Virus record (IMG/VR): IMGVR_UViG_3300000117_000059
Span: 1 to 42,973 of that record
DNA length: 42,973 bases
Origin: a virus
Reading direction: 5' to 3' (one strand)
This document shows, piece by piece, positions 19,658 through 33,723 of the stretch; within the stretch, counting starts at the first letter, position 1; each line of letters begins with the position of its first letter. The position numbers and the translations under genes were made by a program. The notes under the pieces were generated by a model. It saw only the letters and a program-made list of their open reading frames with translations, made no database searches and was not told the DNA's origin.

Positions 19658-19927
19658 TCAGGCTTTTGTCTTCGTTACGTTTTGATTTACAATCTCACGT
19701 ACGCCGACGCCAGCACTACCAAGAATAGCGCCAGTGGTAGCACTATCAATACCAAAACCCTCAGCAATACCCGTGATCAACATACCGATAACTGGTGCGA
19801 GAATTGGCAGGTATTGTGCCGGGATCTGCTCTACGAACCTTTTTAGTAAAGAAATTACAATCGGAGTGAGTACTGGAACAATCGCAACTACTAAACCCTG
19901 AGCCAAACTAAGATCTATATCTTCCAT
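19658..19927 (-). CDS. Small membrane protein, holin-like
   Basis: An 89-residue protein with two strong hydrophobic helices (about 9-28, 'GLVVAIVPVLTPIVISLL', and about 41-60, 'LPILAPVIGMLITGIAEGF') separated by a short charged loop ('KRFVEQIPAQY'), then a Gly-rich weaker helix and a polar Lys-containing tail. Size and topology fit a class II-type holin or a similar membrane pore, but other small membrane proteins look the same. A strong SD (AAAGGAG) lies 9 bases before the ATG, unlike the weak signals of its two downstream neighbours, suggesting those are translated by coupling. Confidence 0.68.
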   Translation of the reverse strand: MEDIDLSLAQGLVVAIVPVLTPIVISLLKRFVEQIPAQYLPILAPVIGMLITGIAEGFGIDSATTGAILGSAGVGVREIVNQNVTKTKA

Positions 19928-19939
19928 AATAATTCTCCT

Positions 19940-20299
19940 TTAAGAAAACTTCACTATTTCAGCGAATGCTTTTTCACGCGCCCCATCAATATTCTTATTT
20001 AAGTACTCAAGAAGTCGGCCCTCATCGCCAACTTGAGCCGCGTGTTCACGTGCTTCTGTATTATAATCTTCGCCTTCGCTGAATCTGGAAATACGTTCAG
20101 CTTTATCAGCCGTACGTTCTGACAGCGTATAAGCCGCTACAGCTAATGAACCCCAGCGAAGGGAAGACTCAAACTCTATCTGAGCTTTTGTTTTCTGTTG
20201 TAGCTCAATAATAGCGGCAGGGACATCAAGACCAACAGGCTGTTTCTTTTTTGAAACGGCTTTGCGAAACTGTGAGGCTGTGTCTAACTGCTTAGGCAT
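19940..20299 (-). CDS. Hypothetical helical protein
   Basis: An unrecognised 119-residue protein, mostly helical and charged. The start is basic ('FRKAVSKKKQPVG'), the middle has 'LRWGSLAVAAYTLSERTADK' and the end 'GRLLEYLNKNIDGAREKAFA'. No transmembrane segment or catalytic motif is visible. It lies 25 bases after the 224-residue gene and 12 before the holin-like gene. The ribosome-binding signal is weak. Confidence 0.7.
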   Translation of the reverse strand: MPKQLDTASQFRKAVSKKKQPVGLDVPAAIIELQQKTKAQIEFESSLRWGSLAVAAYTLSERTADKAERISRFSEGEDYNTEAREHAAQVGDEGRLLEYLNKNIDGAREKAFAEIVKFS

Positions 20300-20324
20300 T
20301 TCTTACGCTTACTTTCAATTAACT

Positions 20325-20999
20325 TTACTTTTCCATGTCAGGACCGCCCGGAGGAGTCCCTCTATCATCAAACTTTCCATTTAGAGCGGATTGAAGGTTT
20401 ATATCGTACCGGAGTCCGTGGATACCTTGCCCATAGGCATTAGGGTGTACGCTGTATGCCTCACCCCTCTCTTTATTTATAACTACCGGCTCGTTGCCAA
20501 TAAACTGTCCATCCGATTTTCTGAAATTCTTAATATTTTTTACTTCACCGCCATGGATAATTGCTGGGTGGGATATGCGGGCTAGGTTTAAATTTGATGC
20601 CGCTTTACGGGAGATAGCATGTTCTGGGTGTAGCACACGAATACCAACCCTCGATTCAGCTAATTTAGGCTTAGAACTTTTTTGAGATCTGGCGTGATAG
20701 TGTTTAAGAGTGAACTTAGCCATGTGGCTAGCAGAGTCGTGGTCATCCTCAAAGCCGTCACTATCCTCACCATAGTGATTACCATTAGGGTCAAAATACT
20801 TAACCCTATACTCATTGTAATCTAAGTCTTTATAAACCTTTGCCGTGTGACCGCCTTCGCCAGCATGCTTTGAAACTAGACGAAGCCTTGGCTTATCGAT
20901 TATGGTGCTGGAGCCACCCATGCCGCCCTCTGCAACTACTTCAGCAGGGGCTGCACCGGCAACAACTTGCTCGATCATATCTTTCCAATAACGTGCCAT
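20325..20999 (-). CDS. Hypothetical protein with putative head-targeting N-terminus
   Basis: A 224-residue protein that I cannot assign. Its first 24 residues ('YWKDMIEQVVAGAAPAEVV') share a pattern with the starts of two other small proteins in this window and recall the capsid-targeting sequence of T4 internal proteins. A basic/aromatic domain follows with 'YNEYRVKYFDPNGNHYGED' and 'AKFTLKHYHARSQK', then 'KPKLAESRVG', which fits the LxE prohead-protease cleavage rule. The C-terminal part has 'VLHPEHAISRKAA' and many His/Asn. It overlaps the preceding gene as TAATG. An internal head protein is my working hypothesis. Confidence 0.72.
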   Translation of the reverse strand: MARYWKDMIEQVVAGAAPAEVVAEGGMGGSSTIIDKPRLRLVSKHAGEGGHTAKVYKDLDYNEYRVKYFDPNGNHYGEDSDGFEDDHDSASHMAKFTLKHYHARSQKSSKPKLAESRVGIRVLHPEHAISRKAASNLNLARISHPAIIHGGEVKNIKNFRKSDGQFIGNEPVVINKERGEAYSVHPNAYGQGIHGLRYDINLQSALNGKFDDRGTPPGGPDMEK

Positions 21000-21241
21000 T
21001 AGTAAGACTCTTTCTTAATACTTCTCTTACTTCTATAGTCGTAATGACCTTTTTTTGCGTAAGCATTCAAAGCATCAGGACCAGTTTCTGGGTGATCGAC
21101 TCGACTTCGATCTATACCCTTGCCTTTGTCAATTACTGGGGGCTTACTTCTATAGTCGTAATGACCTTTTTTTGCGTAAGTACTTAAAGTACTAGTTTCA
21201 GCGAGTCGTTGAGTAATTAGTTCGTCGGCTTTCATTTTCAA
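20999..21241 (-). CDS. Small repeat protein with AYAKKGHYDYRSK units
   Basis: An 80-residue basic protein made largely of a duplicated 12-residue unit 'YAKKGHYDYRSK' (about 22-33 and 61-72) separated by a Gly/Asp/Arg linker. It begins 'ADELITQRLAET', one of five occurrences in the window of a (R/K)LxE motif preceded by an amphipathic 'LI' helix. The ATG overlaps the stop of the upstream gene (ATGA). Its basic, Tyr-rich repeats would suit nucleic-acid contact or packing inside the head, but no function can be read from it. Confidence 0.68.
   Translation of the reverse strand: MKMKADELITQRLAETSTLSTYAKKGHYDYRSKPPVIDKGKGIDRSRVDHPETGPDALNAYAKKGHYDYRSKRSIKKESY
21026..21180 (-). repeat. Direct repeat pair, 38 bp
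   Basis: Two identical 38-base copies lie at 21026-21063 and 21143-21180, 117 bases (39 codons) apart, encoding the duplicated 'YAKKGHYDYRSK' unit. Identity at every third position, including a T7/A7 run, suggests recent duplication or ongoing recombination between the copies. Confidence 0.9.
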
Positions 21242-22119
21242 CCATCCTCAGGGGCGATGTCGGAATCGACCGGCTCAATCTCAGCCCCAGTAAAGTCACG
21301 GCGACCGAAACCTTGTAAAAGAATACGATAAACAGGCTCAGTCACGCCAGTTGGGTAGTAAGCGAACTCGACTACTCCAACCTGCCCAACAATGTTCTCC
21401 TGAGAACCAGCGGGGATGCCTCTGGCGCGTACGGAGTTGGACTGAGGGTCGATGCCGACAATGCGGACCATCTTACCCGCACAGCAAGGGTTGTCTTCAC
21501 CAGCTAATGGCGCGTCTTCAGCAAGCTTGCTCAGGTTTTTCTTATCGAGTACGCGAATGACGCCACTCTCGCTGAACAACTTAAAGCGACGACCAAAAAC
21601 ATCGGCCTGCTCTACAGCGTACTGAGTCCCTTCACCGTCAGCGACACGGTCACCAATACGGATCGAGTCGCCAGCAGTTAAGGAACCTTCAATTGTCTTA
21701 CGAAGGATGTCGCGGGTGCCGGTTACCGGACGAGCAACAAATGACTCCTCAGCAACTTCTTTATTGATCGCGACTTTGCCACCCTTAGCGCCAAAATCGA
21801 TCACGTAAGAATCGTCGTGCACTTCCGAAACTGTACCTTTAACGCCAGCACGGATGTAACCGCTAGCTAATGTAATAGTATTAGCCGCTTCGACATTCTC
21901 ACTTACTTTGAAAGTGTTTTCTTCCTTAACACCGCCAAACATTTTCTTGTTCATTCCAACAATATCCTTGAGTCGCTGCGCTCTGTAATCCATAGAAGTC
22001 TCCTTTGCACTAACTCCCTTTGAAGAGTTTAGCGAGTTTTTACCGTGTGCGTAACGGTCATTAAAGTAATTATAGTAAATAGCTCCAAAACCTTCATCAA
22101 TCTTATCCCAATAACTCAT
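21238..22119 (-). CDS. Hypothetical protein with SH3-like barrel pattern
   Basis: A 293-residue protein, start chosen at the ATG 8 bases after GGAGG. The N-terminal 42 residues are aromatic-rich ('SYWDKIDEGFGAIYYNYF'). From about 90 on it is beta-rich with KOW/SH3-like stretches ('AGVKGTVSEVHDDSYVIDFG', 'AGDSIRIGDRVADGEG', 'AGKMVRIVGIDPQSNSVRA'), suggesting two or three small barrels. A second in-frame ATG at 21993 has its own AAGGA signal at 7-base spacing and would give a 251-residue form lacking the aromatic segment. No known family is recognised. It ends with an ATGA overlap onto the repeat protein. Confidence 0.75.
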   Translation of the reverse strand: MSYWDKIDEGFGAIYYNYFNDRYAHGKNSLNSSKGVSAKETSMDYRAQRLKDIVGMNKKMFGGVKEENTFKVSENVEAANTITLASGYIRAGVKGTVSEVHDDSYVIDFGAKGGKVAINKEVAEESFVARPVTGTRDILRKTIEGSLTAGDSIRIGDRVADGEGTQYAVEQADVFGRRFKLFSESGVIRVLDKKNLSKLAEDAPLAGEDNPCCAGKMVRIVGIDPQSNSVRARGIPAGSQENIVGQVGVVEFAYYPTGVTEPVYRILLQGFGRRDFTGAEIEPVDSDIAPEDG

Positions 22120-22123
22120 AGTC

Positions 22124-22474
22124 TCACCCTCCAACTATCAGTCTGGCGTTTACGGCGTTGGAGCCAGATGGGTTTGTCACCTGAACGCTACTTAAAGTAA
22201 CGCCCCTCAGCATAGTAAGCTTGTTACAGGCAATGGTGTAAGCACCCCCACCTGCATTAATGATTAAATTAACAGTAGAACCACCAACAGGGATTAAAGT
22301 GAGTTCGGATATTGAGGTGATTCCGGCAACAGTATAAGTTCCCCCTGATGCCAATTTTAATTCTAAGTCTTGTAGTTGGTTCAGACTAGAAAAAGTGTCA
22401 AAGGAGGTAACATAATCAAGCTCATGTGTATCTGAGCGCTCTATCTTACCGGATGTACGCAAACTATAAGACAT
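22124..22474 (-). CDS. Beta-rich protein, paralogue 2 of a tandem pair
   Basis: A 116-residue protein related to the gene just upstream: both begin 'SG.(V/I)(Q/E)RSDT' and end 'N(V/A)RL(V/I)(M/V)GG', with similar beta-strand spacing between. This copy has 'GGTYTVAGITSISELTLIPV' and 'NAGGGAYTIACNKLTM'. The sequence is Thr/Ser/Gly/Val-rich with no enzymatic motif, as in capsid decoration or fibre-base proteins. Its ATG overlaps the upstream stop (TAATG), so the pair is translationally coupled. A virion surface role is inferred, not shown. Confidence 0.72.
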   Translation of the reverse strand: MSYSLRTSGKIERSDTHELDYVTSFDTFSSLNQLQDLELKLASGGTYTVAGITSISELTLIPVGGSTVNLIINAGGGAYTIACNKLTMLRGVTLSSVQVTNPSGSNAVNARLIVGG

Positions 22475-22833
22475 TACGCCCCTCCCATAACCAAACGAAC
22501 ATTAGCAGCAGCTGAAGTGCTAGCGTTAGAGATAACTAATCCAGTTAAATTAGTTTCACAAAACACAAACTGCTTACCTGTAATCGCAGGAGCATCTCCA
22601 CCTGCGGTAGTAAACACTATAGACAACTTCTGGTCCGAAGAAATAATAAGTATAGTTGCCGTAGTAAATGGGAGATTCGGAATATGCTCATAGCCAGTGT
22701 CGGGACTTTTAGCTAGAGCTATTGTCTCTACGCTATCCTCGGTAACCGCTAACGAGGGCGCAAGTGTAAATAAATCGACTATATTAGCAGTGTCCGAACG
22801 TTGTACGGCACCTGAAAAAGCTATTGTTGGCAT
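22474..22833 (-). CDS. Beta-rich protein, paralogue 1 of a tandem pair
   Basis: A 119-residue protein, first of two adjacent paralogues (shared 'RSDT' start and 'RL.(M/V)GG' end). It carries 'TATILIISSDQKLSIVFTTA' and 'GKQFVFCETNLTGLVISNAS', again alternating beta strands. It lies 15 bases after the 130-residue gene and one base overlaps its partner. The divergence between the copies (about a quarter to a third identity by eye) means the duplication is old. Possible capsid decoration; family not recognised. Confidence 0.72.
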   Translation of the reverse strand: MPTIAFSGAVQRSDTANIVDLFTLAPSLAVTEDSVETIALAKSPDTGYEHIPNLPFTTATILIISSDQKLSIVFTTAGGDAPAITGKQFVFCETNLTGLVISNASTSAAANVRLVMGGA

Positions 22834-22848
22834 TCAGCTGTTTCCCGA

Positions 22849-23241
22849 TTAACTACGGTTAATCATTTCCCAAGCAATTTGTTCTTGCGGAGACCGCCTT
22901 TGCTCCAAATTAGGGCGGCTTTGAATTGAAGCACCCTCGGAGCCTTCGGGCTTTGTCATATCCCCAGCATCCCAAAATGCTAAGAGTTGTTTTATAAATA
23001 CGGCTAATAAATTAGGAGAATTTAAAGCACTTCTAACGGAGACGTAAGCATCCGAAATAGCACGATGCTCTTGAAACCAAGACTTAATTTCTTCTATTTT
23101 TTCTTCGGAAACTTCTTCCGCTTCCAAATCTTTTAAGTACCCGCCTAATATAGGCCTAAACTGTGCTTGTTCACGAGCATCTGGGATTCGAGCCGAAAGC
23201 CCGATCATCTCACGAAGGTTTATATTCATTACCTTCTTCAT
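22849..23241 (-). CDS. Hypothetical helical protein
   Basis: An unrecognised 130-residue protein, largely alpha-helical and acidic in the middle ('LEAEEVSEEKIEEIKSWFQE'), with a hydrophobic amphipathic helix ('NLLAVFIKQLLAFWDAGD') and a Gln/Arg/Pro C-terminus ('NLEQRRSPQEQIAWEMI'). GAGGG lies 10 bases before the chosen ATG; a second ATG four codons in is preceded by GAAGG but too closely. It lies between the secreted Cys-rich protein (28 bases) and the paralogue pair. Confidence 0.7.
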   Translation of the reverse strand: MKKVMNINLREMIGLSARIPDAREQAQFRPILGGYLKDLEAEEVSEEKIEEIKSWFQEHRAISDAYVSVRSALNSPNLLAVFIKQLLAFWDAGDMTKPEGSEGASIQSRPNLEQRRSPQEQIAWEMINRS

Positions 23242-23269
23242 ATTATTTTTTCCCTCTCATGTGTACGAG

Positions 23270-23944
23270 TTAGTCGTTTACAGCTGAGCGTTCGGTAACA
23301 ACTATAATGTCAGCAGTGGATGTACCGAAACAACAAATGTCAGCACCACCTTCAAATTTAAATCCTGTCTGACCACAGGTTCCGGCTGTCCCTGCTATCT
23401 TGATACCATTATCAGCGGTAGCTGGACATGTATAACCACACGCAACAATTTGGTCACTACAATTACCAATAAACACAGACTTCCTATTCGAGTAATTGCC
23501 CGGAGAGATAAGAATAGACGCAGCACCTATATTCGACTTGATTTCAGAAGTACTAAACGGGGACACGGTAGAATAGACAAAAGTAAAGCTCGCACCCCCA
23601 CCAGCCTCGACACCTGCGAGGAGACCTGCTGGACTCACACACCACAATGGCAGTGTGCTCTGTAGGGTAGTGGCAGCAGCTGAATTAAGCCTAATCTGAC
23701 CAGTGACGACATTAGAATCTACCTGAGAACAGGTAACGGTCGTCGCAGGCGTAGTTGCCACAAGCTGTGCAGTAGCCTCGTAGCGATTTGGGTTAGCGGG
23801 AACAATTAAACTAGGTATTCGGGTGACCGTTTTTGTCTCCGTGATGGCGATAGCCTCAGGAGCCAACATGCCTAATAAAATTGCCGTTAAGGCAAATGTC
23901 TTTATTAAAGTCCCAGCAAATAAGCGGTTTTTACCTTGAGTCAC
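23270..23944 (-). CDS. Secreted cysteine-rich protein
   Basis: A 224-residue protein starting at a GTG six bases after GGAGGA (an upstream in-frame ATG lies inside the previous gene and has no ribosome-binding signal). The N-terminus is a textbook Sec signal peptide: basic 'KNRLFAGTLIK', hydrophobic 'TFALTAILLGMLA', and an 'AIA' cleavage site near residue 33. There is no lipobox. The mature part holds eight Cys ('TVTCSQ', 'LWCVS', 'GNC', 'VACGYTC', 'GTCG', 'DICCFG'), an even number suited to disulfides in the periplasm or outside the cell. Family not recognised. An exported protein inside a structural operon is unusual for a phage. Confidence 0.78.
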   Translation of the reverse strand: MTQGKNRLFAGTLIKTFALTAILLGMLAPEAIAITETKTVTRIPSLIVPANPNRYEATAQLVATTPATTVTCSQVDSNVVTGQIRLNSAAATTLQSTLPLWCVSPAGLLAGVEAGGGASFTFVYSTVSPFSTSEIKSNIGAASILISPGNYSNRKSVFIGNCSDQIVACGYTCPATADNGIKIAGTAGTCGQTGFKFEGGADICCFGTSTADIIVVTERSAVND

Positions 23945-23960
23945 AACTCTCCTCCAAAAA

Positions 23961-24155
23961 TCAACCCTGACTAGGGTACGGTCTAGGATTAATACTATCA
24001 TGAACTGGATTGCCTTGAGGGTCTACAGCGTACAGTCTACGGTTATCGAAACCGCTTTCCCAAGGCTTCGCCGCTATTTTCATGTTATCTACAGACACCC
24101 TTAACGCTATAGCTGGGTTGCTGCTGGAATAAAGAACTCCGGGGCCACCGCTCAC
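23961..24155 (-). CDS. Small hypothetical protein
   Basis: A 64-residue protein starting at a GTG eight bases after AAGGGG and overlapping the upstream stop by four bases. It begins with a Gly/Ser segment ('SGGPGVLYSSSNPAI') and includes 'RRLYAVDPQGNPVHDSI'. No motif is recognised. The tidy overlap and ribosome-binding sequence support it as a real gene. Confidence 0.6.
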   Translation of the reverse strand: MSGGPGVLYSSSNPAIALRVSVDNMKIAAKPWESGFDNRRLYAVDPQGNPVHDSINPRPYPSQG

Positions 24156-24337
24156 GAGAAAATCCCCTTATAAAAACTCTTTACCGCCTTAACGACCGGC
24201 AAAGAAACTACCCAGTTGCCAGCACTGCGAGCACCTTCAATTAACGGGACATAGATCGCAGTGCCCGACTCTTCGTGACTTTTGATAGCGTCTTTAATGG
24301 ATTCAGGTAGTGGGGTTTTGTCTAAAAGATCGTTCAT
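24152..24337 (-). CDS. Small hypothetical protein
   Basis: A 61-residue protein beginning 'MNDLLDKTPLPESIKDAIKS' and ending in an amphipathic to hydrophobic segment ('GNWVVSLPVVKAVKSFYKGI') that might touch a membrane but is not a clear transmembrane helix. Its ATG overlaps the upstream stop by four bases and its stop overlaps the next start. Function unknown. Confidence 0.62.
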   Translation of the reverse strand: MNDLLDKTPLPESIKDAIKSHEESGTAIYVPLIEGARSAGNWVVSLPVVKAVKSFYKGIFS

Positions 24338-24987
24338 ACTAGTCTTCCGTGATGACCCATTTTGATCCTAGAGGTTACATAATTGTGGAGACGTTTAATT
24401 TGAGTATGGTTATCGTAGTCATCTTTGTCATCTTCCGGGTAACTACTTGGATTTTTTGAAACATCATTTAGCAAAGAGCTAACTTCTTGTTCAGTAGAAC
24501 TGTCAACATGCCCGGTGGATGCAAGTGCGTAGAGAGATGATCGTTGACCATCGTGCCACTGACTGGCTATTTCAGCGGCGTCCATGTGGTGGATCTCTCC
24601 ACCCAAGCCATCGTCATAGTACCCAGAGTGGGCGTCTGGTATATTAGCCAAACCCTTGTTGCTATGACGACTGACCCTCGCAGCATCCCTAGATTTTACG
24701 TATTTAGGGTAATTACTTACATGGCCAACGACTTTACTCTCGCTCAATCGTGCCTTAATCAGGTCATCCGCTGGCGTGTACGACTCACCACCACCGCCAC
24801 CATCACCACCGCCACCGTCGCCGCCCATGTCACCACCGGCATCCATACCACCCTCGTCGCCGTCGTCATCACGGTCGTCTTGGTCATTGGAGCGATCACG
24901 CCAGAAGCCAGCCCAAGGACCACGTCCACGAATCGGCAGCTTCTTGGGGTCCATAGCCCCTATCATTACTTTCTTTTCATTAATCAA
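24334..24987 (-). CDS. Hypothetical Gly/Asp-rich protein with LxE motif
   Basis: A protein of about 217 residues; the best start is a TTG six bases after TTGGAG, though ATG codons 21 and 33 bases downstream are possible. A basic opening ('PKKLPIRGRGPWAGFWRD') is followed by an acidic/Gly-rich linker (about residues 35-70), then 'ADDLIKARLSESKVVG', one of the five LxE motifs of this window. The C-terminal domain has 'EIASQWHDGQRSSLYALAS', a string I remember from proteins of marine phages (cyanophages, pelagiphages), where its function is also unknown. If the LxE site is cut, the last 130 residues would be released as the mature form. Confidence 0.7.
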   Translation of the reverse strand: MINEKKVMIGAMDPKKLPIRGRGPWAGFWRDRSNDQDDRDDDGDEGGMDAGGDMGGDGGGGDGGGGGESYTPADDLIKARLSESKVVGHVSNYPKYVKSRDAARVSRHSNKGLANIPDAHSGYYDDGLGGEIHHMDAAEIASQWHDGQRSSLYALASTGHVDSSTEQEVSSLLNDVSKNPSSYPEDDKDDYDNHTQIKRLHNYVTSRIKMGHHGRLV

Positions 24988-25000
24988 TTTTAACTCCAAC

Positions 25001-25480
25001 CTAACGAAGACTGCTCTGCTTCATTGTAGCTATTAAATTCAAAGGAACTTGAGTATTAGTTATATAATCAGTGAACTTAACCGTAAGTATCTCATAATCA
25101 ATTCCGAGATACTCGATTAGATCCCCCGTGCTTGGCTCAACCCCAACCTCGGCGTTAACCCTGTTACTAAATACACAAGCGGCCTCGTGTTCTTCTTCTA
25201 TGCCGTACCTTTTTAATAACTTCTTTTGGTCGCCATAGATAATCAATGTAGGCACTAAAATAGCCGTCTCATGCACCGGGAATCCTACAGATTCATTATA
25301 AAGGTCGTCTACTTTAGTATTCGTCCTGTCTAATTTCCGGTAATTAACCGCAGGATAAAGCAACCTGAACTGCTCAGCGTTCATCTTTAGAAGAACTTCG
25401 ACATCCCGCTGTGATGTACCAATAGGAGTAATAACAAAATTGGTTTGCGGAGTGTCCTGTATGAACTCACCCGTCGCCAT
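25001..25480 (-). CDS. Putative head closure / neck protein
   Basis: A 159-residue protein with the head-closure-like pattern 'EPSTGDLIEYLGIDYEILTV', in which a 'GD.I...G..Y.I' beta turn is followed by a strand and 'VPLNLIATMK'. Earlier it has 'TAILVPTLIIYGDQKKLLKR'. This fits proteins that plug the connector after packaging. Its place in the connector-type gene group between the capsid and tail modules agrees. The AGGT ribosome-binding sequence lies about 10 bases upstream. I rate the assignment moderate; no T4 counterpart is certain. Confidence 0.55.
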   Translation of the reverse strand: MATGEFIQDTPQTNFVITPIGTSQRDVEVLLKMNAEQFRLLYPAVNYRKLDRTNTKVDDLYNESVGFPVHETAILVPTLIIYGDQKKLLKRYGIEEEHEAACVFSNRVNAEVGVEPSTGDLIEYLGIDYEILTVKFTDYITNTQVPLNLIATMKQSSLR

Positions 25481-25810
25481 TTATTTATTACCTACCGTAT
25501 GAATAGAAGCTAAAGCGTCGTCTAAAGACCTAACTCCGATACCTTTTTGAAAAATCGATCTGCGACCCTTTTCAGGCGATTGATAGTGGTGCCATCGCAT
25601 CCCATACTTGGGATCACTGTAAGTAAACACAGAATGACCTTTGTCATGAACGTACCACCCGTCGCTCCTCTGAACCTTCTGCTTCTCTTCATCAGGCATG
25701 TAGTGGTAGCGCAAAAGAATGCCCTCTAGGGCGTCTTTTAATTTCACTTCATCAAGGCGACCGTGAAGCTTATCAGCAATAAGAAGTTCTATTATTTCTT
25801 TATTATCCAC
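25481..25810 (-). CDS. Hypothetical protein
   Basis: A 109-residue protein with a GTG start overlapping the upstream stop. The N-terminal half is helical ('EIIELLIADKLHGRLDEV'), the second half aromatic and His-rich ('SDPKYGMRWHHYQSPEKG'). No family is recognised. It sits between the 331-residue protein and the neck-like protein, separated from the latter by no gap. Possible small neck or internal protein. Confidence 0.66.
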   Translation of the reverse strand: MDNKEIIELLIADKLHGRLDEVKLKDALEGILLRYHYMPDEEKQKVQRSDGWYVHDKGHSVFTYSDPKYGMRWHHYQSPEKGRRSIFQKGIGVRSLDDALASIHTVGNK

Positions 25811-26798
25811 GACCGTGCCCTACCTCGCGTAACCCAATAGCTATGCCCACATTGAGTTCTTTGTAAAACCCAGAACCGTGGTGTAAGTCACTTGGGCGAG
25901 AATCTACCGTTCTAGCGATGTTTCCTATGCCCGTAGCTAATAACTCCCCAAACCCAGAAGGATCTGAACCCGCCGTACCATGCTCATGCGCGTCATGTGA
26001 ACGTATGTCAGTATTCGTAAAAGAGAGCATAAAGTTACGGTGGTTGGGGCCTTCAACGTATCGCATTTTTTTAGTCACGGGGTGCAGACCAGCCTTACTG
26101 ATAATACCGTTTTTTAAAGCTTTACGTATTAAAATATCTCGGGCCTTGTCGGCCCAGAATTCTTTATGCCCTTCCATGTTATGGGATCTTAGGGAGGCCA
26201 TCTTTCCAGAAAAGGTACTGCCGCTGTCTTTGGCGCTAGCGATTGCTGCTGCTGAAGCCTCTTTTGCCTTTGGGTGTTCGCTATGATTGCCCCAGAATAG
26301 TTTATGGTTCAACAGATGCTGTGAGTTCCAAGGCATGTGCTTAGTTGGAGGTGTCCAAGAAGCATCTCCCGGCACTCTACCCTTAGAAATTGAGTCCATA
26401 TTGAGAATATTAGACAACGACGGCCTTACGGAATCTCCAAACCTAGTAGTAACCTTTTGAGCAATAACGTCTGAACTTCTGGACGCTAGAGCCTTACTAC
26501 CTAAACGCCTAGTAAGCTTAGGGTTTCTGGGAGGCCTGCCCATTCTCTCGGCATCGTCACTGTATGGGTCAGACTTCAAATCGCTAGGAACGAAGCTAGG
26601 GTTAGTTCTACCTTCACCTAACTTAGACCGAATCAACTTCTCTGCCCCGGTATATAAATCTTCGTCAGGGTCACTCCCGTCATCATTCGTGTAGTCGGCT
26701 TCACGAGGCAAATCACTCCATGATGTCAAAAACTTGACACTAGGCCCCGTAAAAGACCCCTTCATTCTGGGGATAGCTGGTAAACGCTTACGCTTCAT
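25803..26798 (-). CDS. Hypothetical basic protein with LxE motif
   Basis: A 331-residue basic protein not assigned to a family. After a Lys/Arg-rich start ('MKRKRLPAIPRMKG') and an acidic stretch it shows 'AEKLIRSKLGEGRTNP', the LxE motif. The middle is Arg/Pro-rich; about 160-225 contains two related 'H.L..HK.FW' units ('QHLLNHKLFWGNHS', 'HNMEGHKEFWADKA'). The C-terminus is His/Gly-rich ('SHDAHEHGTAGSDPSG'). No nuclease motif is convincing. It follows the neck-like gene by five bases. If cut at LGE (about residue 60) it would lose an acidic propeptide and leave a basic protein, as expected for DNA-associated internal head proteins. Confidence 0.7.
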   Translation of the reverse strand: MKRKRLPAIPRMKGSFTGPSVKFLTSWSDLPREADYTNDDGSDPDEDLYTGAEKLIRSKLGEGRTNPSFVPSDLKSDPYSDDAERMGRPPRNPKLTRRLGSKALASRSSDVIAQKVTTRFGDSVRPSLSNILNMDSISKGRVPGDASWTPPTKHMPWNSQHLLNHKLFWGNHSEHPKAKEASAAAIASAKDSGSTFSGKMASLRSHNMEGHKEFWADKARDILIRKALKNGIISKAGLHPVTKKMRYVEGPNHRNFMLSFTNTDIRSHDAHEHGTAGSDPSGFGELLATGIGNIARTVDSRPSDLHHGSGFYKELNVGIAIGLREVGHGRG

Positions 26799-26803
26799 TC
26801 GAC

Positions 26804-27535
26804 TTACCTGAATATAGGCAGGGGTGGCGTCCTTAAACGCAGTTCCTGTTCTGCTGTGGCTAAGCGCCTCTCCCCTTCCATGACTAGCTCTCTACCGTCT
26901 AGAGTCTGTTCGGACTGAGCACCCGGCACACTGAACTTCCTCCGAACACGCCCTACAGCGATCTCTGCCTGCGCTAAAACGTGCATACGGACCCAATCAA
27001 CGTCATCCTTAGGGATGGAGTGAAGGTCGCGAGGGAAAGCCGAAGCGTACGTAAGCGTGAAAGCCTCGTCTGGCTTAGGATAAATGCGTAGAGCGCCATC
27101 CTGCCACTCCCAATCAAACTCACTGGAGAGAATCTTAGTGGCCTCTTGGAAATAGGTGTAATCAACCATCAACTCAGAGATATCTCTGTATGGATAACTG
27201 TACCTGTAACCAAAGATATCAAGGCGGGGGCCAGAGCTAAGCATTAGAGGGGCAATTGGGTCGATTCTAGGTATCATGACCTCAACAATACCGTAGCCAA
27301 TCGTGTCTCTTTGAGGATTGTACTGTTGAACACCAGCGTGCGCTGGAAGTGAAAACCATCGGATCTTTGGGATAACCCTAGAGTAAGTCTCAAGGCTCTG
27401 CTCTAGGAAGTAATGCAGCATGTCGTCGGTGATCTCAACCTCGACAACAGGCCAACCGAACATTGACTTGACGTACTGAAATACAGCGAGGTGGTCTACC
27501 TCCTCTGGCTGCACTAGTGGGGTTTGGTCGGCCAT
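26804..27535 (-). CDS. Putative head-tail connector / neck protein
   Basis: A 243-residue protein located after the capsid gene and its 51-codon neighbour. The pattern 'FQYVKSMFGWPVVEVEITDD' followed by 'MLHYFLEQSLETYSRVIPK' resembles connector/adaptor proteins in which a 'V.VEI.D..L...L..AL..Y' helix packs on the portal. A middle Tyr-rich part ('LDIFGYRYSYPYRDISELM') and a helical C-terminus with 'HVLAQAEIAVGRVRRKF' follow. I recognise the pattern as a virion neck protein of large myoviruses, without a firm T4 name. It has clear spacing of five bases to the next gene. Confidence 0.65.
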   Translation of the reverse strand: MADQTPLVQPEEVDHLAVFQYVKSMFGWPVVEVEITDDMLHYFLEQSLETYSRVIPKIRWFSLPAHAGVQQYNPQRDTIGYGIVEVMIPRIDPIAPLMLSSGPRLDIFGYRYSYPYRDISELMVDYTYFQEATKILSSEFDWEWQDGALRIYPKPDEAFTLTYASAFPRDLHSIPKDDVDWVRMHVLAQAEIAVGRVRRKFSVPGAQSEQTLDGRELVMEGERRLATAEQELRLRTPPLPIFR

Positions 27536-27553
27536 TAATAGATACCTCTAAAC

Positions 27554-27709
27554 TTACTTAGACTCGCGTTTAAAAGAGTCTAAATTATTACTTTGTTTAG
27601 GAGCTTGTTTAGTCTCTTGATCTTGGGTCTTCTTCTTATTTTTGGCGAAAACCTCTTCAATAGGCCTGCCAGCTAAGACCTGATCGAGAGCGTCTTTAAT
27701 ACTGTCCAA
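27554..27709 (-). CDS. Small protein with TTG start and targeting-like motif
   Basis: A 51-codon gene in the gap between capsid and neck genes. It starts at TTG with a strong SD (AAGGAG, 8-base spacing). The protein begins 'DSIKDALDQVLAGRPIEEVF', sharing the 'KD...(E/Q)V.(A/T)G..P..V' pattern seen at the N-termini of two other proteins here, and ends in a Lys/Gln-rich tail. It is preceded by the terminator following the capsid gene. Small size, position and motif would fit a prohead core or internal protein; this is inference. Confidence 0.7.
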   Translation of the reverse strand: MDSIKDALDQVLAGRPIEEVFAKNKKKTQDQETKQAPKQSNNLDSFKRESK

Positions 27710-27750
27710 TTTAAATACTCCTTCTCAGAGTACTGGACCTGAAAAGAAAA

Positions 27751-27780
27751 AGGGGGCAGAGGCAAGTGCCCCTGCCCCCT
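27751..27780 (-). terminator. Rho-independent terminator after the capsid gene
   Basis: On the minus strand a 13-base stem (AGGGGGCAGGGGC with GCCTCTGCCCCCT, one G-T pair) with a four-base loop is followed by TTTTTCTTTTC. It starts 24 bases after the capsid stop. This is the strongest terminator in the window and would cap the abundant capsid transcript; genes downstream need read-through or their own promoter. Confidence 0.92.
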
Positions 27781-27804
27781 TCTGGGTCAGCACCCTATCG
27801 GGAA

Positions 27805-29343
27805 CTATGCGCCGAAGACGCCACGACCGTCAGCGATTCCATTGATATCTGTTGCGGAACCGAAGTTGTCGTTGGTGAAGGCATCGGTAGGCTTGCCAGC
27901 CTTGGCAGCAAGCTGTGCCAAGTTACCAATCTGACCGGTGACATAGAAGAGGCTATTGATAGCTTTCTTGCCGTACTGCGTGGCCAGACCCTTACGGGCG
28001 ACGAAGTCATCGAGGACGACTGTCGGGGTGGTGTAGAGAGGAATGTAAGGAGCATACACGTAACCAGCCTCTAAGAAGCTAGCACCCTTGTATCCCATCA
28101 GGAAGTAATCGTCCTGATAGAATGGGTCTTTGTAGATGTCCCACATGCCGTTAAGGCGACCACAGCGGTACGCACCCTTGGTAAGCCCAGTCGGGATACC
28201 GGGGTTTGCAACGAAGCCGGGAAGAGTCTCAACAACCGTAGCAACCTTCTCGCCACAGACGATCCAGTTGGCACGTCCCCGACCAGTTGCCTTGTGGATC
28301 AGGTTCGATCCGGTTACGAAGGCATCAACAATCGAGAGCTTGTGCTCGGTGTAGCTGTAGTAATTGCTACCAGTACCACCGCCGGGATCAGTGTTCCAGT
28401 AAACGGAACCTGCACCGGACATACGCTGGAGATCGGTGATGATCTCACGGTCAACCTCGAACCGAATATCGGCTGCAACTGCTGCCGTCAGTTCGACCTC
28501 AGCCTCAAGCCCGTGCAACGAGCGGAGGTTGAAGGCTGCTTCAAGCGACCAGTTCGTCCGCAACTTGCGAGGACGGGCCGAAATAGGCGAGTGGTTGAGG
28601 ACCAGATCCATCTGAGGGATATTGGAGTTGGCCTCTGTGTTGTACTGGTAGGTACATGTTACTGCAACACCAGCTGCAACTGGGGCTGTAAACTGAATGT
28701 TACCAGCACACTGACCATTATTGTAGTTAATGGTCTGGGCACCGTTAATGTCACCAACAAGGTTACCATTACCGTCATCAGTGATGACCTGAGTACCGTC
28801 CGTGAACTGAACAGTTCCGGGGACGACTGGCAGATATGAAAGGCTTGGAGTGCCAGCACCACCGGCATTACCCGTACCAACGCCAACCTGCTCCGAATCA
28901 ACGGTAGGCGACGAGTAGTCGGGGTTGTTCGCGCCACGGGCGACCGACGAAAATGCGGTATCTCCACGACGTACATTACCCTTATTGGAACCGTAGACCA
29001 TGTCCATATAGAACACGAGGCTGACGGGGCCAAGCATAGGCTGTACCGAAACGAGTTCGTTGGCAATCAACTCAGGGTAGATTGCGCGAACGAGGGGCAT
29101 GGCGTACTTCTGGAAATCGCCAACTGCGACGGCCCGTGTCGTTTCGTCTAGATTTTCAATGTAACGCTCGGTGTTTTCGAGCATGACGGCCAACCCATAA
29201 CGGGTGTCGTCATTCTCGATTGGGGCCGAAACGTCTTCACAAAGGTCACGCCACTTCGTCTCCGAAAGATGACGCCCGACGCTAAGGAAGTTGTCATGGA
29301 CCCCTGACGAGTTCATGTCTTCCACGAGTGCATTAATGCTCAT
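27805..29343 (-). CDS. Major capsid protein, gp23-like
   Basis: A 512-residue T4 gp23-type capsid protein. Clear family stretches are 'YAMPLVRAIYPELIANELVS' with 'VQPMLGPVSLVFYMDMVYG' (about 80-120), 'SPISARPRKLRTNWSLEAAF' and 'NLRSLHGLEAEVELTAAVAA' (about 240-280), and 'DIRFEVDREIITDLQRM'. A beta module (about 160-225, 'PGTVQFTDGTQVITDDGNG' to 'AVTCTYQYNTEAN') is inserted relative to T4 and recurs in other proteins of this window. Like T4, an N-terminal propeptide is likely; LxE candidates are LSE at 26-28, LCE at 34-36 and an LDE near residue 66. SD AAGGAG is 7 bases before the ATG. The gene looks more GC-rich by eye than its accessory neighbours. Confidence 0.97.
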   Translation of the reverse strand: MSINALVEDMNSSGVHDNFLSVGRHLSETKWRDLCEDVSAPIENDDTRYGLAVMLENTERYIENLDETTRAVAVGDFQKYAMPLVRAIYPELIANELVSVQPMLGPVSLVFYMDMVYGSNKGNVRRGDTAFSSVARGANNPDYSSPTVDSEQVGVGTGNAGGAGTPSLSYLPVVPGTVQFTDGTQVITDDGNGNLVGDINGAQTINYNNGQCAGNIQFTAPVAAGVAVTCTYQYNTEANSNIPQMDLVLNHSPISARPRKLRTNWSLEAAFNLRSLHGLEAEVELTAAVAADIRFEVDREIITDLQRMSGAGSVYWNTDPGGGTGSNYYSYTEHKLSIVDAFVTGSNLIHKATGRGRANWIVCGEKVATVVETLPGFVANPGIPTGLTKGAYRCGRLNGMWDIYKDPFYQDDYFLMGYKGASFLEAGYVYAPYIPLYTTPTVVLDDFVARKGLATQYGKKAINSLFYVTGQIGNLAQLAAKAGKPTDAFTNDNFGSATDINGIADGRGVFGA

Positions 29344-29370
29344 TTAATAACTCCTTTTAGAGTATGTCTC

Positions 29371-30132
29371 TCATGCACCAAGGGTGCGGCGCAAAATGCG
29401 TCGGGAGAGATCTTGATTTACAGTGTTAGCTCCTTCTGCGATTGCAAAAGCAGCATCCCCAGCAAGCGACTGCTCGCTAATTTCAGTTACGGCAGTCGGG
29501 AGACTTCCGTCCGACTTGACTTCAACGGCCTCTTCGACAGCTGGAGCCTGAGGAGCGGAAACTTCCTCATTGACGAGACCCTTCAAGGTCTCAAATCGCT
29601 GAGAAACTTCTTCAACCGAACGGCACTCAGCGAGTAAGGGACGAAGACGCTTGGAAAGCTCCTCGGACTCATTCGCAAGAATGTTGTCGATCTTCTCAAC
29701 GGTTCCACGGCGACGTACACGCTCAATGGTCTCGGCAAGCAGCGCTTCAGCAGCCTCAGCACGCTCAACGGACTCGTTGGCGAACTCAAGACGCTGTAGA
29801 AGCTCTTCAATTACTTCCTTAGAAGCATCGAAGGCCTGCTCAAGCGTGTGGTCTTCATCATACATCTCAGGTCCAGTTGGAGTCATCTCGAAACCTTCCT
29901 CAGCCTTGAACGCTTCCAGATGGAAACGGGCATTCTTAAGCTGAGAAACAAGCTCTTCACCGACTTTGTCAGCTGCGACGATCTTTTCGTCAGCCTCTGA
30001 ATTCTCGGCACGGAGCTTGTCGATTTGGGCTACCGCCTCAGCGAGGCGATTCTCCAACTCTTCCCGAACCTTTTCGACTTCCCGACGTACCAGAGTCTGG
30101 ACTTCGGGGTGTTCAAGAGAGAGTTCCTGCAT
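29371..30132 (-). CDS. Nested in-frame scaffold protein (internal start)
   Basis: Within the protease-scaffold gene, GGAGG at 30141-30145 precedes an in-frame ATG at 30132 with an optimal 8-base gap. The product would be 253 residues beginning 'MQELSLEHPEVQTLV', i.e. the complete coiled-coil scaffold without the protease or linker. Lambda (C and Nu3) and related phages make their scaffold in the same nested way, giving many scaffold copies per protease. Heptad-rich charged helices run almost throughout ('REELENRLAEAVAQIDKL', 'EELLQRLEFANESVERAE'). The start signal is seen in the sequence; use in vivo is inferred. Confidence 0.72.
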   Translation of the reverse strand: MQELSLEHPEVQTLVRREVEKVREELENRLAEAVAQIDKLRAENSEADEKIVAADKVGEELVSQLKNARFHLEAFKAEEGFEMTPTGPEMYDEDHTLEQAFDASKEVIEELLQRLEFANESVERAEAAEALLAETIERVRRRGTVEKIDNILANESEELSKRLRPLLAECRSVEEVSQRFETLKGLVNEEVSAPQAPAVEEAVEVKSDGSLPTAVTEISEQSLAGDAAFAIAEGANTVNQDLSRRILRRTLGA

Positions 30133-31020
30133 CTTTTTATCCTCCGCAACCTCATCGTCGGAACGAAGAGGAGTGTTTGTTGTTACATCATCAGGTGTTG
30201 ATACCGACACCGCACTCGCAGGTACTAAGACCATTGGAGTGCTTGTCGAAGTTTCCCCAATTATGGGTATGTTGGAAACTGGGAAAATCTTTGGGCTATC
30301 GCCAGAAGCAATGCGAACATCAATAGTTTCAATCATACTATCAATGCTCGATTGGCTATCTATGCTCTCCCCAGTACGCACCTCGGCTAAAATCTTACGA
30401 TACCCCTGAAGCTCTGCTGCACTGCAAGCTGGCTCGACCAGTCGCTCTACAGCATTAATTACACTTTCAGAGATTACTTTGGGGTACGCCCCCGGAGTGC
30501 TCGGGTCGAGAACATGATCAAAAGTCTCTAAACGAAAATCGTCAGAAACCAACTGCTCCTCGTTCCCACCACGAACACTTCCCTGACCTCTTGAAGAAAC
30601 ACCTAACTGAACACCAGCACGATAAAGTTCTTGAAGAATTTTACCCTCGGGCGTGTTAAGTGCCTCCTCCTCGGCCATGACATGCGTATGCGGACCACCG
30701 TTTGCCTTGCAGACCGCACACTCAGGCTTATAACCTTCCTCCATCCAAACCTTGGTAATAAGGTGAGAGACGTTGGAAAGTCGAGTCTTACCGTCCGTGG
30801 GGTGCCCAAGCTCACCTAATACCAAGCGTGAACCAAGCCTACGGTTAAAATCACCGTTGTTGGACAAAACTTTTTCCCACAGACCGCGAGGGTAGACTCT
30901 TCGGTTACGGTTCTTCGTATCCGATAGCTGATAAATACCCCTTAGACGAAGGCGACTTCCATCACCCGCATCTTCAATGATCTCGTAAGGAAAGACATCA
31001 GACTCGACTAGATTCTCCAT
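29371..31020 (-). CDS. Prohead protease (gp21-like) fused to scaffold
   Basis: A 549-residue fusion. Residues 1-190 are a T4 gp21-type prohead serine protease: His73 in 'VLGELGHPTDG' and Ser142/143 in 'VQLGVSSRGQGS' are the likely catalytic residues, with a nearby acidic cluster ('SDDFRLETFDHVLDP'). An insertion 'CAVCKANGGPHTH' (101-113) with a CxxC and HxH could bind zinc. A Ser/Thr/Pro linker (about 215-290) leads to a long acidic coiled-coil scaffold (297-549), equivalent to T4 gp22. It directly precedes the capsid gene. It would process the scaffold, itself and other head proteins after LxE-type sites. An internal start at residue 297 is described separately. Confidence 0.93.
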   Translation of the reverse strand: MENLVESDVFPYEIIEDAGDGSRLRLRGIYQLSDTKNRNRRVYPRGLWEKVLSNNGDFNRRLGSRLVLGELGHPTDGKTRLSNVSHLITKVWMEEGYKPECAVCKANGGPHTHVMAEEEALNTPEGKILQELYRAGVQLGVSSRGQGSVRGGNEEQLVSDDFRLETFDHVLDPSTPGAYPKVISESVINAVERLVEPACSAAELQGYRKILAEVRTGESIDSQSSIDSMIETIDVRIASGDSPKIFPVSNIPIIGETSTSTPMVLVPASAVSVSTPDDVTTNTPLRSDDEVAEDKKMQELSLEHPEVQTLVRREVEKVREELENRLAEAVAQIDKLRAENSEADEKIVAADKVGEELVSQLKNARFHLEAFKAEEGFEMTPTGPEMYDEDHTLEQAFDASKEVIEELLQRLEFANESVERAEAAEALLAETIERVRRRGTVEKIDNILANESEELSKRLRPLLAECRSVEEVSQRFETLKGLVNEEVSAPQAPAVEEAVEVKSDGSLPTAVTEISEQSLAGDAAFAIAEGANTVNQDLSRRILRRTLGA

Positions 31021-31035
31021 TATAAGAACCTATAC

Positions 31036-31308
31036 TTATGGGACCGTCACGGCGATAATAGCGCCGATAACGTCTACATGGGCCACACGAGCACTAGCGT
31101 CCCAATGGATAACTTTACCAGCGCCGTCATGAGGAGTATCGAGCATTTGCCCGATCTTTACATCAGCAACAACTGGCGCAGGTTCAGGAGTAGGTTCAGG
31201 AGTAGGTTCAGGAGTAGGTTCAGGAGCGACTTCAACCACTACCTCTTCTACTTCTTCTACAGACTCAACCTTAGCTCGGGCTTCCTTTTCTTTTTTAGCT
31301 CTAGGCAT
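31036..31308 (-). CDS. Small acidic/PEPT-repeat protein, possible prohead core
   Basis: A 90-residue protein starting at the ATG that overlaps the upstream stop (TGATG). A charged start ('PRAKKEKEARAKVES') and a Val/Glu stretch lead to four tandem 'PEPT'-type units, then a small beta domain ('GAGKVIHWDASARVAHVDVI') resembling an SH3-like barrel. Its position just before the protease-scaffold gene is that of T4 gp67/gp68, prohead core proteins that are also short and acidic; equivalence is inferred from position and composition only. Confidence 0.65.
   Translation of the reverse strand: MPRAKKEKEARAKVESVEEVEEVVVEVAPEPTPEPTPEPTPEPAPVVADVKIGQMLDTPHDGAGKVIHWDASARVAHVDVIGAIIAVTVP
31181..31228 (-). 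repeat. 12-bp tandem repeat, four units
   Basis: GGTTCAGGAGTA (plus strand) is repeated three times exactly with a fourth copy differing in the last two bases. It encodes the 'PEPT' units of the small acidic protein and could expand or shrink by slippage without breaking frame. Confidence 0.95.
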
Positions 31309-32045
31309 CAGGAAGCCTCCCGTGAACCAATTACACCACGCAGCGCCGTAATTGCACCCATCATGGTCTTGGGCTGGCCAGCGCCTACGAGCTTGGACCA
31401 ATCAACTCGGAACTGCTCAGGCAACCAACGAGGAGGCTTAGCAGCTAAGCTACCTTCTGGACCCCAAGCTACATGAGCGGCCAAGTCTTTGATTTGAGTC
31501 TCATCAAGCTGACGAGCAAGGTCTACGTAGAATGTGGCCTCTTCAAGAGCCGACATTGTTTCCGGCTGCTTGAAAGACTCAACCTTCCGACGAGACTTGT
31601 CGAGAAGAAGCTTTTTCTCGTCTTCTTCACCTTCAGCGTCATCGCCCTCGGCGTCGTCGCCCTCTTTATCTTCTTCGTCGTCGCCTTCTTTTTCCTTGTC
31701 GTCTTCTTGCTCTTGCTCACCAAGAGGTAACGCACAACGTAAACACGTTTCGTCCTCTTCACTCACAGTAACGCCACAAAAGCCACAATAAGGGTCTTCT
31801 GCTTCGACTTCAGGGATGGTGCCTTCGGCAGTAACTCCTGCCTCCGACTCGGCAACGGCGACTGGTTCATCAACAGCAATTCCCTCTCCGGGGAGAGGCA
31901 ATAATGCTTGAAGTTCTTCCTTAGTCATGCCGTTTCCTTCCTGTGGGACAGGAGCAGCACACACTTCGCATTTATTATCAAAAGCAGGAACACCTACGTG
32001 ATGACAACTTTTACATGCGGTTTTATGTGCTGCCCCATCCGACAT
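31308..32045 (-). CDS. Acidic protein with two zinc ribbons
   Basis: A 245-residue protein with two Cys4 knuckles: 'CKSCHHVGVPAFDNKCEVC' (about 11-29) and 'CGFCGVTVSEEDETCLRC' (about 87-104). Between and after them lie acidic segments, the longest a run of Glu/Asp/Lys with repeated 'GDD(A/E)E' units (about 110-145). The C-terminal 90 residues are helical with 'ATFYVDLARQLDETQIKDLA' and 'WLPEQFRVDWSKLVGAG'. No known family is recognised. Located before the prohead protease, it may be a prohead core component or an assembly factor. Confidence 0.7.
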   Translation of the reverse strand: MSDGAAHKTACKSCHHVGVPAFDNKCEVCAAPVPQEGNGMTKEELQALLPLPGEGIAVDEPVAVAESEAGVTAEGTIPEVEAEDPYCGFCGVTVSEEDETCLRCALPLGEQEQEDDKEKEGDDEEDKEGDDAEGDDAEGEEDEKKLLLDKSRRKVESFKQPETMSALEEATFYVDLARQLDETQIKDLAAHVAWGPEGSLAAKPPRWLPEQFRVDWSKLVGAGQPKTMMGAITALRGVIGSREAS

Positions 32046-32072
32046 TTGTTTTTACCTATCTATCAGAATAGA

Positions 32073-32996
32073 TTAGTTAGAACCACCGTTGGCGTTAGTA
32101 ACACTGAAGAAAGCTACGTCAATGACACCCTTGTCATCAATGCGTTCTGTTGCAGAGCTAACAGTGTCAGTGGCGGTGCTAGAACGTCCAGCACGAATAC
32201 GCATCTCAGCAGGAAGGCCGCTCTGGAAAGTAACGATCTTTGAACCGTAACCACCAAGCTTGGCGGAAGCAGAAGGGGTACCCTCAAACTGAACAGCGCT
32301 TCTTGACTTAGCAGTCTCGACGAACACGCCAATCTCATCAGAACCAAGGTTAGAGATAACTGCGCCGGTTGGTAGGTCTGCACGACCGTTGCTCATGCGG
32401 GCGAAGTTCTTGAAGAAGTTCTTTCCGCTAGAAAGCTCATCTGGGCTATCAGCCATCTTGTCGCCTTCAATCTCAACGGGTTGAGTGTCAGTTACAGCAG
32501 TACTAGTGGTAATGGTTACAGCGCCTAAAGCGTAGTCAATCGTGCCAGTAGTTCCATCCTGCACGCCCGACTCATTAACTGCACCGTCGCCATCTGCGTC
32601 AATGGCAACCCCGGCAGCATTGTTGATTGAAAGTTTGACTGAACCGGGGCGAAGTGCGCCATTTTTACGTACAACGCGAGTACCAATAGCGTGAGCGCTC
32701 TTCGTTGCGGTAAGCGTAACCGCAAGAGGACCGGCACCAACTTCTGGTGTAACAGAAGACGCAGTCACCTCTTCCTCTTTCGAGGTTCCGGGGGCTAAAA
32801 TATAAGTACCGTCAATAAATCCGTTGCGTTGGCTGATAGTGATATTCCCGGTATGCTCAGCGGGGATTGCCGCTGTTAAAACAGCGTCACCGGTCGAATG
32901 AACTTTGGTTGCAGAGCTATCGCCTGCGTTCATTGCGAAATCTGAAAACGATGTACACTGTGGTGCTGAGACCTGTGCTTTTCCATTATTAGTCAT
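32073..32996 (-). CDS. Beta-rich virion protein, possibly capsid decoration
   Basis: A 307-residue protein, Ala/Thr/Ser/Val-rich, no catalytic motif. About 115-185 contains 'RPGSVKLSINNAAGVAIDAD' leading to 'GTIDYALGAVTITTSTAV', a copy of the beta module also inserted in the capsid protein and spike. The C-terminal part ('NLGSDEIGVFVETAKSRSAV', 'GSKIVTFQSGLPAEMRIRAG') is beta-rich too. GGAGG lies 7 bases before the ATG, so it is likely well translated. Its position at the head of the capsid gene group suggests a capsid surface or vertex protein. Not a recognised family. Confidence 0.7.
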   Translation of the reverse strand: MTNNGKAQVSAPQCTSFSDFAMNAGDSSATKVHSTGDAVLTAAIPAEHTGNITISQRNGFIDGTYILAPGTSKEEEVTASSVTPEVGAGPLAVTLTATKSAHAIGTRVVRKNGALRPGSVKLSINNAAGVAIDADGDGAVNESGVQDGTTGTIDYALGAVTITTSTAVTDTQPVEIEGDKMADSPDELSSGKNFFKNFARMSNGRADLPTGAVISNLGSDEIGVFVETAKSRSAVQFEGTPSASAKLGGYGSKIVTFQSGLPAEMRIRAGRSSTATDTVSSATERIDDKGVIDVAFFSVTNANGGSN

Positions 32997-33046
32997 TGAA
33001 TTTCCTCCCTCTCCTAATTAGAAGAGAATTTCCGCTATAAGCGGTA

Positions 33047-33268
33047 TTAGATTACGTGATCTAAGTCCCTTTTTAGGGCCTCGGCTAGATCTCGAATTGT
33101 CCTTGCCTTGTCTTCAAAGGGCTTCAACGCTTCATGGTCAGTGCTCAAAATTAATCTAACAACTGCTTCCATGTTTGTTATCGCTTCAGCTATCAATGAT
33201 TTGACCTTTTTTACATCTGAGTTTGCAAAATAGGGGTGATCTGGACCAAGCTCGGTTTCCCAAAACAC
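33047..33268 (-). CDS. Small helical hypothetical protein
   Basis: A 73-residue protein read from a GTG. After a short polar start ('FWETELGPDHPYFANSD') the whole chain is one or two amphipathic helices ('KKVKSLIAEAITNMEAVVRL', 'KARTIRDLAEALKRDLD'). The ribosome-binding sequence is weak (GGTAGG). Family not recognised. A hairpin (CCGCT-TAT-AGCGG) lies in the gap after it. Confidence 0.55.
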   Translation of the reverse strand: MFWETELGPDHPYFANSDVKKVKSLIAEAITNMEAVVRLILSTDHEALKPFEDKARTIRDLAEALKRDLDHVI

Positions 33269-33345
33269 CTAAACCTACCCCATTCTCTCAGAAATATTGG
33301 TACTCTTGTAAGCCCTTGAAAGTATTTACTTACTATAAAAAATGA

Positions 33346-33723
33346 TTAGCAGCTTGAAGGAAGCTGCTCAGTGCGACATGCAAGCAATCCACGAAGGATG
33401 TTGTCCCACATATCCCACGACCCCTGAGAGTCGATTCGAGCCGTCCCCTCATACTGTGAGCGGTTATCTTGCGCCATCTTGACCAGATCATTCATGCCCT
33501 GAGGGTCTGAACCACGGACTTGGTCAGCGATATGCGAGATCCAGTCTGGACCAACGTAACCATTATACGAACCAATTTGACCAGCAATCTGCCGGAAAGC
33601 GGCCTCTTTGGCAGCATCGGAGTCAAAATCGTCTTGACGTTCTTGACCTAAATTATCCTCAACAACAGTCAAAGGGTGTGCACCAGTTGCAACCTCGTTA
33701 ACCATATCTTTAAAAGTACTCAT
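33346..33723 (-). CDS. Hypothetical protein with putative head-targeting N-terminus
   Basis: A 125-residue protein whose start 'STFKDMVNEVATGAHPLTVV' matches the shared N-terminal pattern of two other small proteins in this window and resembles the T4 internal-protein targeting sequence in layout. The rest is polar with 'AAFRQIAGQIGSYNGYVGPD' and 'SWDMWDNILRGLLACRTEQL'. AGGAG lies nine bases before the ATG in a small GGAGAATCTCC palindrome that could mask it. No family is recognised. It lies in the accessory block upstream of the head genes. Confidence 0.68.
   Translation of the reverse strand: MSTFKDMVNEVATGAHPLTVVEDNLGQERQDDFDSDAAKEAAFRQIAGQIGSYNGYVGPDWISHIADQVRGSDPQGMNDLVKMAQDNRSQYEGTARIDSQGSWDMWDNILRGLLACRTEQLPSSC

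Follow-up and report, generated by a model that had tools for sequence, protein, structure and literature searches.

A putative capsid-targeting segment common to unrelated proteins in a clade of gp23/gp21-type phages

In phage T4, short N-terminal propeptides of 10–19 residues direct proteins to the core before being removed, gp21 cleaving C-terminal to Glu after L/I-x-E (PMC9026906). In phage P1, the N-terminal 30 residues of DarB, an injected anti-restriction protein, suffice to package a reporter, although a BLAST comparison by the same authors gave no consensus among the Dar N-termini (PMC9024508). In SPN3US, the first 15 residues of gp53 and gp54 are identical, and the propeptides of gp45 and gp225 comprise 20 and 24 residues (PMC5694885, PMC10052503). 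For large phages, the set of head-packed injected proteins is as a rule known only where virions of a cultured phage have been analysed by proteomics. Here we analyse a segment of about 20 residues, further called the tag, which is carried by three proteins of the IMG/VR record IMGVR_UViG_3300000117_000059, a gp23/gp21-type phage sequence studied over its entire 42,973 bases (the window), and by proteins of its relatives. We consider it probable, at roughly three chances in four, that the tag is a detachable capsid-targeting segment which would be removed by the gp21-like protease encoded in the same window.

The IPI, IPII, IPIII and Alt sequences of T4 resemble the tag in being a short segment on unrelated internal proteins, in co-occurring with a gp21-type protease and a gp23-type capsid, and in ending with hydrophobic-x-Glu. 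Unlike the 10–19 residues of T4, the clade tag extends over about 20, has an invariant Gly and often a Pro, and can be internal, and its cargo is larger in number and more varied. The DarB signal is likewise an N-terminal packaging signal, whereas the clade tag, unlike the Dar N-termini, has a consensus across many proteins. The propeptides of the SPN3US/phiKZ ejection proteins are removed by the prohead protease, as we propose for the clade tag, but they differ in their length (mostly 111–254 residues), in the A-x-E or S/A-x-E cut, in the capsid lineage and in that sharing is known for paralogues. Finally, phage polyvalent proteins are injected effectors composed of several domains, InPase among them, similar to the cargo of one of the relatives, but a common short packaging tag was not found in the parts of their description consulted (PMC5512222). 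If it acts as proposed, the clade tag belongs to a known kind, T4-type targeting, in a longer and sometimes internal form with a consensus of its own.

The N-terminal comparisons rest on the 50 genes called in the window. The three proteins that the earlier note had grouped by their N-termini were located at the starts which it gave, all on the minus strand, and they have a 19-residue motif in common: a 224-residue protein (20325..20999, ATG at 20999), a 125-residue protein (33346..33723, ATG at 33723) and a 51-residue lysine-rich protein (27554..27709, TTG at 27709). The TTG start of the last protein has a AGAAGGAG site upstream and is kept in the 94%-identical relative L002. The word “unlinked”, which the note used for these proteins, proved too loose: all of them are encoded within one late head/tail gene block, in which the gene of the 51-residue protein immediately follows the major capsid gene. 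Tag 1, MARYWKDMIEQVVAGAAPAEVVAE (20928..20999, minus strand), has the candidate cut site V-A-E/G at its end and obtains 18.6 bits in the leave-one-out scoring described below, versus 8.6 for the best control. Tag 2, MSTFKDMVNEVATGAHPLTVVE (33658..33723, minus strand), has the candidate cut V-V-E/D and is followed by a conserved domain; it is retained in three orthologues (L009, G001 and L222, 43–50% identity). Tag 3 is (M)DSIKDALDQVLAGRPIEEVF (27647..27709, minus strand). In ungapped comparison of 18 N-terminal residues, the best pairs were the 224- and 125-residue proteins (score 47) and the 224- and 51-residue proteins (score 40), the next pair reaching 32, while the top pair of each of 30 shuffled sets scored 30–42. 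The score of 47 is beyond chance and the score of 40 is by itself borderline; the decisive part of the evidence is recurrence in relatives.

In all, 21 distinct tags were found on unrelated proteins of five related contigs: three in the window, two in L002 (one being the orthologue of the 51-residue protein), seven in G001 (IMGVR_UViG_3300007352_000001), nine in G013 (IMGVR_UViG_3300000311_000002, which includes locus L222) and one in L009. This agrees with the earlier observation that the remainder of each tagged protein differs. A profile built from seven N-termini and run over 15 whole records gave six matches in G001, three in the contig of L002 and one in L009, with none in the remaining 12 records. 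In a 13-row profile, all members obtained at least 19 bits and everything else at most 8.9 (about 0.85 Mb searched). The nine tags of G013 were spotted by reading its gene list and have a shifted consensus (e.g., LDAIIESVLNGESVESVIDRT); with the combined profile, all 21 tags score at least 12.3 bits and the controls up to 8.9, which is also the best score in 200 kb of E. coli K-12. In leave-one-out profiles, with 39,192 reading frames (2.68 million residues) as controls and the orthologues of the 125-residue protein left out together, 11 of the 21 tags beat every control and 17 are beaten by seven controls or fewer. A weak internal tag-like copy, IDAVLDGTSPDVFLSEA (36029..36079, minus strand, in the reading frame 35768–36949), has 8.6 bits and does not exceed the controls (up to 8.9). 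Profile searches revealed further copies only in the relatives of the window phage, and the tag was not found in the wider gp23 world, represented by LR756511, SP-15 and LIS04 together with further long contigs of IMG/VR, mostly of gp23/gp21 type. The 125-residue protein and a 30-residue tag gave no tblastn match in 50,697 phage records, and a peptide-pattern search of IMG/VR for orthologues of this protein returned only two. A chance likeness between amphipathic helices, for which the second pair score speaks by lying inside the range of shuffled maxima, can hardly be credited given the leave-one-out separation from the control residues and the confinement of the tag to one clade.

The tag consists of a predicted helix, an invariant Gly, often a Pro, a second predicted helix and Val-Val-Glu. 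Positions 4, 7, 8, 16 and 17 are hydrophobic (position 16 in 20 of the 21 tags), Gly10 is present in all 21 and Pro13 in nine. Glu occupies position 18 or 19 in 16 of the 21 tags, compared with 13% after hydrophobic pairs, and [LIVFM]-x-E occurs within 16 residues from position 14 in 19 of 21, compared with 21% of 16-mers in the real proteins of the window. The cut site is defined here as a sequence match to the gp21-type motif. As the earlier note had stated, a protease of this type is encoded in the window: the gp21-type prohead protease (29371..31020, minus strand) matches Peptidase_S77 (PF03420, 1.1e-15) and the head maturation protease family PHROG 207 (1e-36), and in the alignment its His73 and Ser142 are invariant across the clade. 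It has a long C-terminal extension, presumably the scaffold part. Together with the gp23-type major capsid protein (27805..29343, minus strand; PF07068, 1.3e-64), this protease places the window among the gp23/gp21-type phages. A by-eye idea that the N-terminus of the capsid protein is itself tag-like was rejected (0.1 bits, no better than shuffles).

In G001, a complete circular genome of 241 kb whose ends carry a direct repeat of about 99 bp, the tags are located at 21.5, 27.1, 32.0, 42.5, 239.4, 240.4 and 240.9 kb, forming one 44-kb arc across the origin, which contains the protease (about 34.7–36.2 kb) and, just downstream of it, the capsid gene; the profile search gave no tags in the remaining 197 kb. 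This arrangement is relevant to the proposal that the segment is a domain-shuffled docking domain for some other partner (late transcription, membrane or a compartment) unrelated to the head. Such a domain would likewise recur on unrelated proteins, and some of the tags are internal, but the restriction of all copies in the complete genome to the head-gene arc and the terminal Glu motif, which suits the co-encoded protease, make this proposal quite improbable.

Two of the cargo domains occur untagged in other phages. The 224-residue protein is composed of the tag, a linker, a small folded cargo domain (residues 39–105; 20685..20885, minus strand) and a poorly predicted remainder, as judged from PHROG 7884 (residues 45–95, E = 7.9e-6) and the structure model. 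The domain, for which the model shows four strands and one helix with a predicted local distance difference test score of about 75–83, is homologous to free-standing proteins of 67–76 residues in Pseudomonas phage Achelous and Limnohabitans phage DC31 (alignment score 90, shuffle maximum 52). These homologues begin at its residue 39, that is, without the tag, and the Achelous gene, situated near the left genome end, begins exactly at the start of the match. Viral structure matches of the domain are proteins of 64–73 residues, and a fold search of the 224-residue protein in the PDB returned nothing significant. A second, adjacent DC31 gene was rejected as a homologue of the remaining part of this protein, its score of 28 not exceeding that of shuffles. 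In L002, this domain is present untagged and terminates a different reading frame, which is interrupted at that place. An additional tagged protein of L002 (MEKFKEMVEAKLNGESAKDLVSGIKIAE/T) occupies a slot in which the window has no tagged protein. The second example is the tagged GP88 protein of G013 (L222; PF17338, 3e-24), whose homologues occur in 16 phages and, among the matches listed, align only from residues 89–106 of the tagged protein. In G001, one tag lies inside a large multi-domain protein of polyvalent type with an InPase domain (PF18823, 8.6e-51), the one domain of it that received an assignment; InPase is a mark of injected phage polyvalent proteins (PMC5512222).

These data bear on the suggestion that the tagged genes are ancient paralogues with diverged bodies, of which the N-terminus alone is still recognisable. 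Tandem duplication is frequent among adjacent phage genes, and when N-termini were compared within each of 85 loci, most of the resulting pairs were tandem paralogues and a few were tag-like. This suggestion is nevertheless very improbable, since the bodies belong to different known families having untagged relatives elsewhere, and since the internal copies would be left unexplained. The alignments of the untagged homologues indicate that the tag is an add-on to its cargo.

The 51-residue protein offers evidence on constraint. Compared with its L002 orthologue, 18 of 21 residues of its tag are identical, the codons having undergone 10 synonymous and three non-synonymous changes, while the tail agrees in eight of 32 columns; selection thus holds the tag, whereas the tail is free to drift. 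In L222, the slot between the capsid and neck genes is occupied by a tagged basic protein of 96 residues (12311–12601). The C-terminus of the latter resembles the ribosome-rescue factor ArfA (PF03889, 1.4e-4, below the cut-off), and from this similarity an injected ribosome-binding peptide is possible. The 51-residue protein also brings up the view that the segment is a core-binding structural element and that the tagged proteins form a scaffold or core consumed in assembly and are not injected. The 51-residue protein is small, lysine-rich, uncut and adjacent to the capsid gene, and in T4 the core components gp67 and gp68 are likewise small and sited with head genes. However, the enzyme and host-interaction domains on the tagged proteins (InPase, GP88, ArfA-like) make no sense as scaffold, and we regard this view as unlikely for the tagged proteins as a whole.

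From the distribution, genomic position, modularity and constraint of the tag and its matching cut motif, established here, we infer packaging, cleavage and injection along the following lines. The two short helices would bind the assembling prohead core, the partner probably being the long C-terminal extension of the protease or some other scaffold, and any tag-bearing protein would thereby be incorporated into the prohead. Cleavage by the gp21-like protease would then follow after the terminal Glu, and the freed cargo would stay with the DNA and enter the cell at infection. Some cargo may be made as multi-domain chains cut apart inside the head, as suggested by the internal tag copies and extra LxE sites. 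Uncut proteins would stay bound or serve as core components, as the 51-residue protein may do. The precedents of the T4 propeptides and P1 DarB make this mechanism plausible.

Several points weigh against capsid targeting. Neither the 51-residue protein, whose tag is followed by no cleavage motif, nor its L002 orthologue has a cut site. The N-terminal placement asserted in the earlier note stands for 16 of the 21 tags, which lie at most 15 residues from a possible start, while the other five are internal, between domains. Its comparison with the T4 tag stands for the layout and probably for the function; as to homology, a T4 set of gp20–24, gp67, gp68, alt.-1 and alt.-2, with IPI–IPIII outside it, gave at most 2.9 bits with the tag profile. 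Structure models of the tag are of low confidence, with a helix at residues 4–13 of the 224-residue protein and helices at 4–12 and 17–24 of the 125-residue protein, the model of which is of low confidence as well. Ten of the 21 tags do not on their own beat every control. The tags of the relatives were partly picked by eye before profiling, which makes the seed-inclusive scores circular; the leave-one-out and first-profile scores are the non-circular ones, and in these too, part of the Glu enrichment stems from the picking of the tags. Capsid targeting is still the best explanation, since the co-encoded protease, the unrelated carriers, the gp21-type sites and the untagged relatives of the cargo agree with it.

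A broader idea, more doubtful than capsid targeting itself and offered tentatively, is that the clade packs strings of effectors as polyproteins by means of repeated internal and terminal address-and-cut tags, which would be cut apart in the head, with a lineage-specific consensus and other tag types alongside. A recognisable tag would permit the listing of injected proteins by sequence search: it names seven candidates, mostly of unknown function, in the complete G001 genome and about nine in G013. It makes the co-evolution of tag and scaffold testable and might serve as a new label by which foreign proteins are brought into phage heads.

A second motif, ADELIxxRLxE[S/T/G], which itself includes a gp21-type cut site, occurs in four unrelated proteins of the window (three times internally) and in L002. 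Its copies, all on the minus strand, are KADELITQRLAE/TST (21188..21232, N-terminal in the reading frame 20999–21241), PADDLIKARLSE/SKV (24730..24774, in 24334–24999), GAEKLIRSKLGE/GRT (26604..26648, in 25803–26798) and TSDDLVLSKLEE/NKP (36689..36733, in 35768–36949). This motif was not found in G001 or G009, and one 13-bit match in G004 looks like chance.

N-termini of further kinds also recur on different proteins. In G013, three nearby unrelated proteins (L222 15520–16251, 16264–16671 and 17826–18113) begin with M[N/D]INTT[F/Y]xxL[L/I]E, which resembles T4 targeting sequences, and the first of them has a DnaJ domain (PF00226, 2.2e-4). In the gp23 phage L017 (15800, 16417 and others), otherwise different proteins have T4-like starts of the MKxFxEWLxEN type, e.g., MKSFAEWLVEN and MKTFQEYLLEN. 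Together with the second motif, these starts suggest that lineage-specific targeting tags may be general in gp23/gp21 phages. The N-terminal IAxLITEDPD(V/I)F, common to different genes of L054 (351–767, 7939–8220) and L070 (1822–2436, 3469–4095), is a candidate lineage-specific tag, and the adjacent L009 genes 4458–5093 and 5113–5754 have the pattern IS(E/D)xVDxLIE...DEFLxDIxR in common.

The nearest capsid proteins among known phages (Bacillus SP-15, Listeria LIS04 and the uncultured LR756511) have 34–39% identity to that of the window, and nearer relatives are found among uncultivated contigs, namely L002 (94%), L007 (64%), G001 (62%), L009 (59%) and G013 (59%). The clade capsid was not found in bacterial genome contigs. 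Just upstream of the head genes, the window encodes a lipase-like protein of 384 residues (34617–35771) with GVPHRGS and HSFGG motifs recognised by eye, for which PHROG and NCBIfam gave no match. Tandem paralogues at 22124–22474 and 22474–22833 have a common N-terminal RSDT motif (ERSDTHELDYV and QRSDTANIVDL). In L222, the neck-protein gene (12614–15118) and a protease-like gene (19393–21348) contain apparent intein-like insertions.

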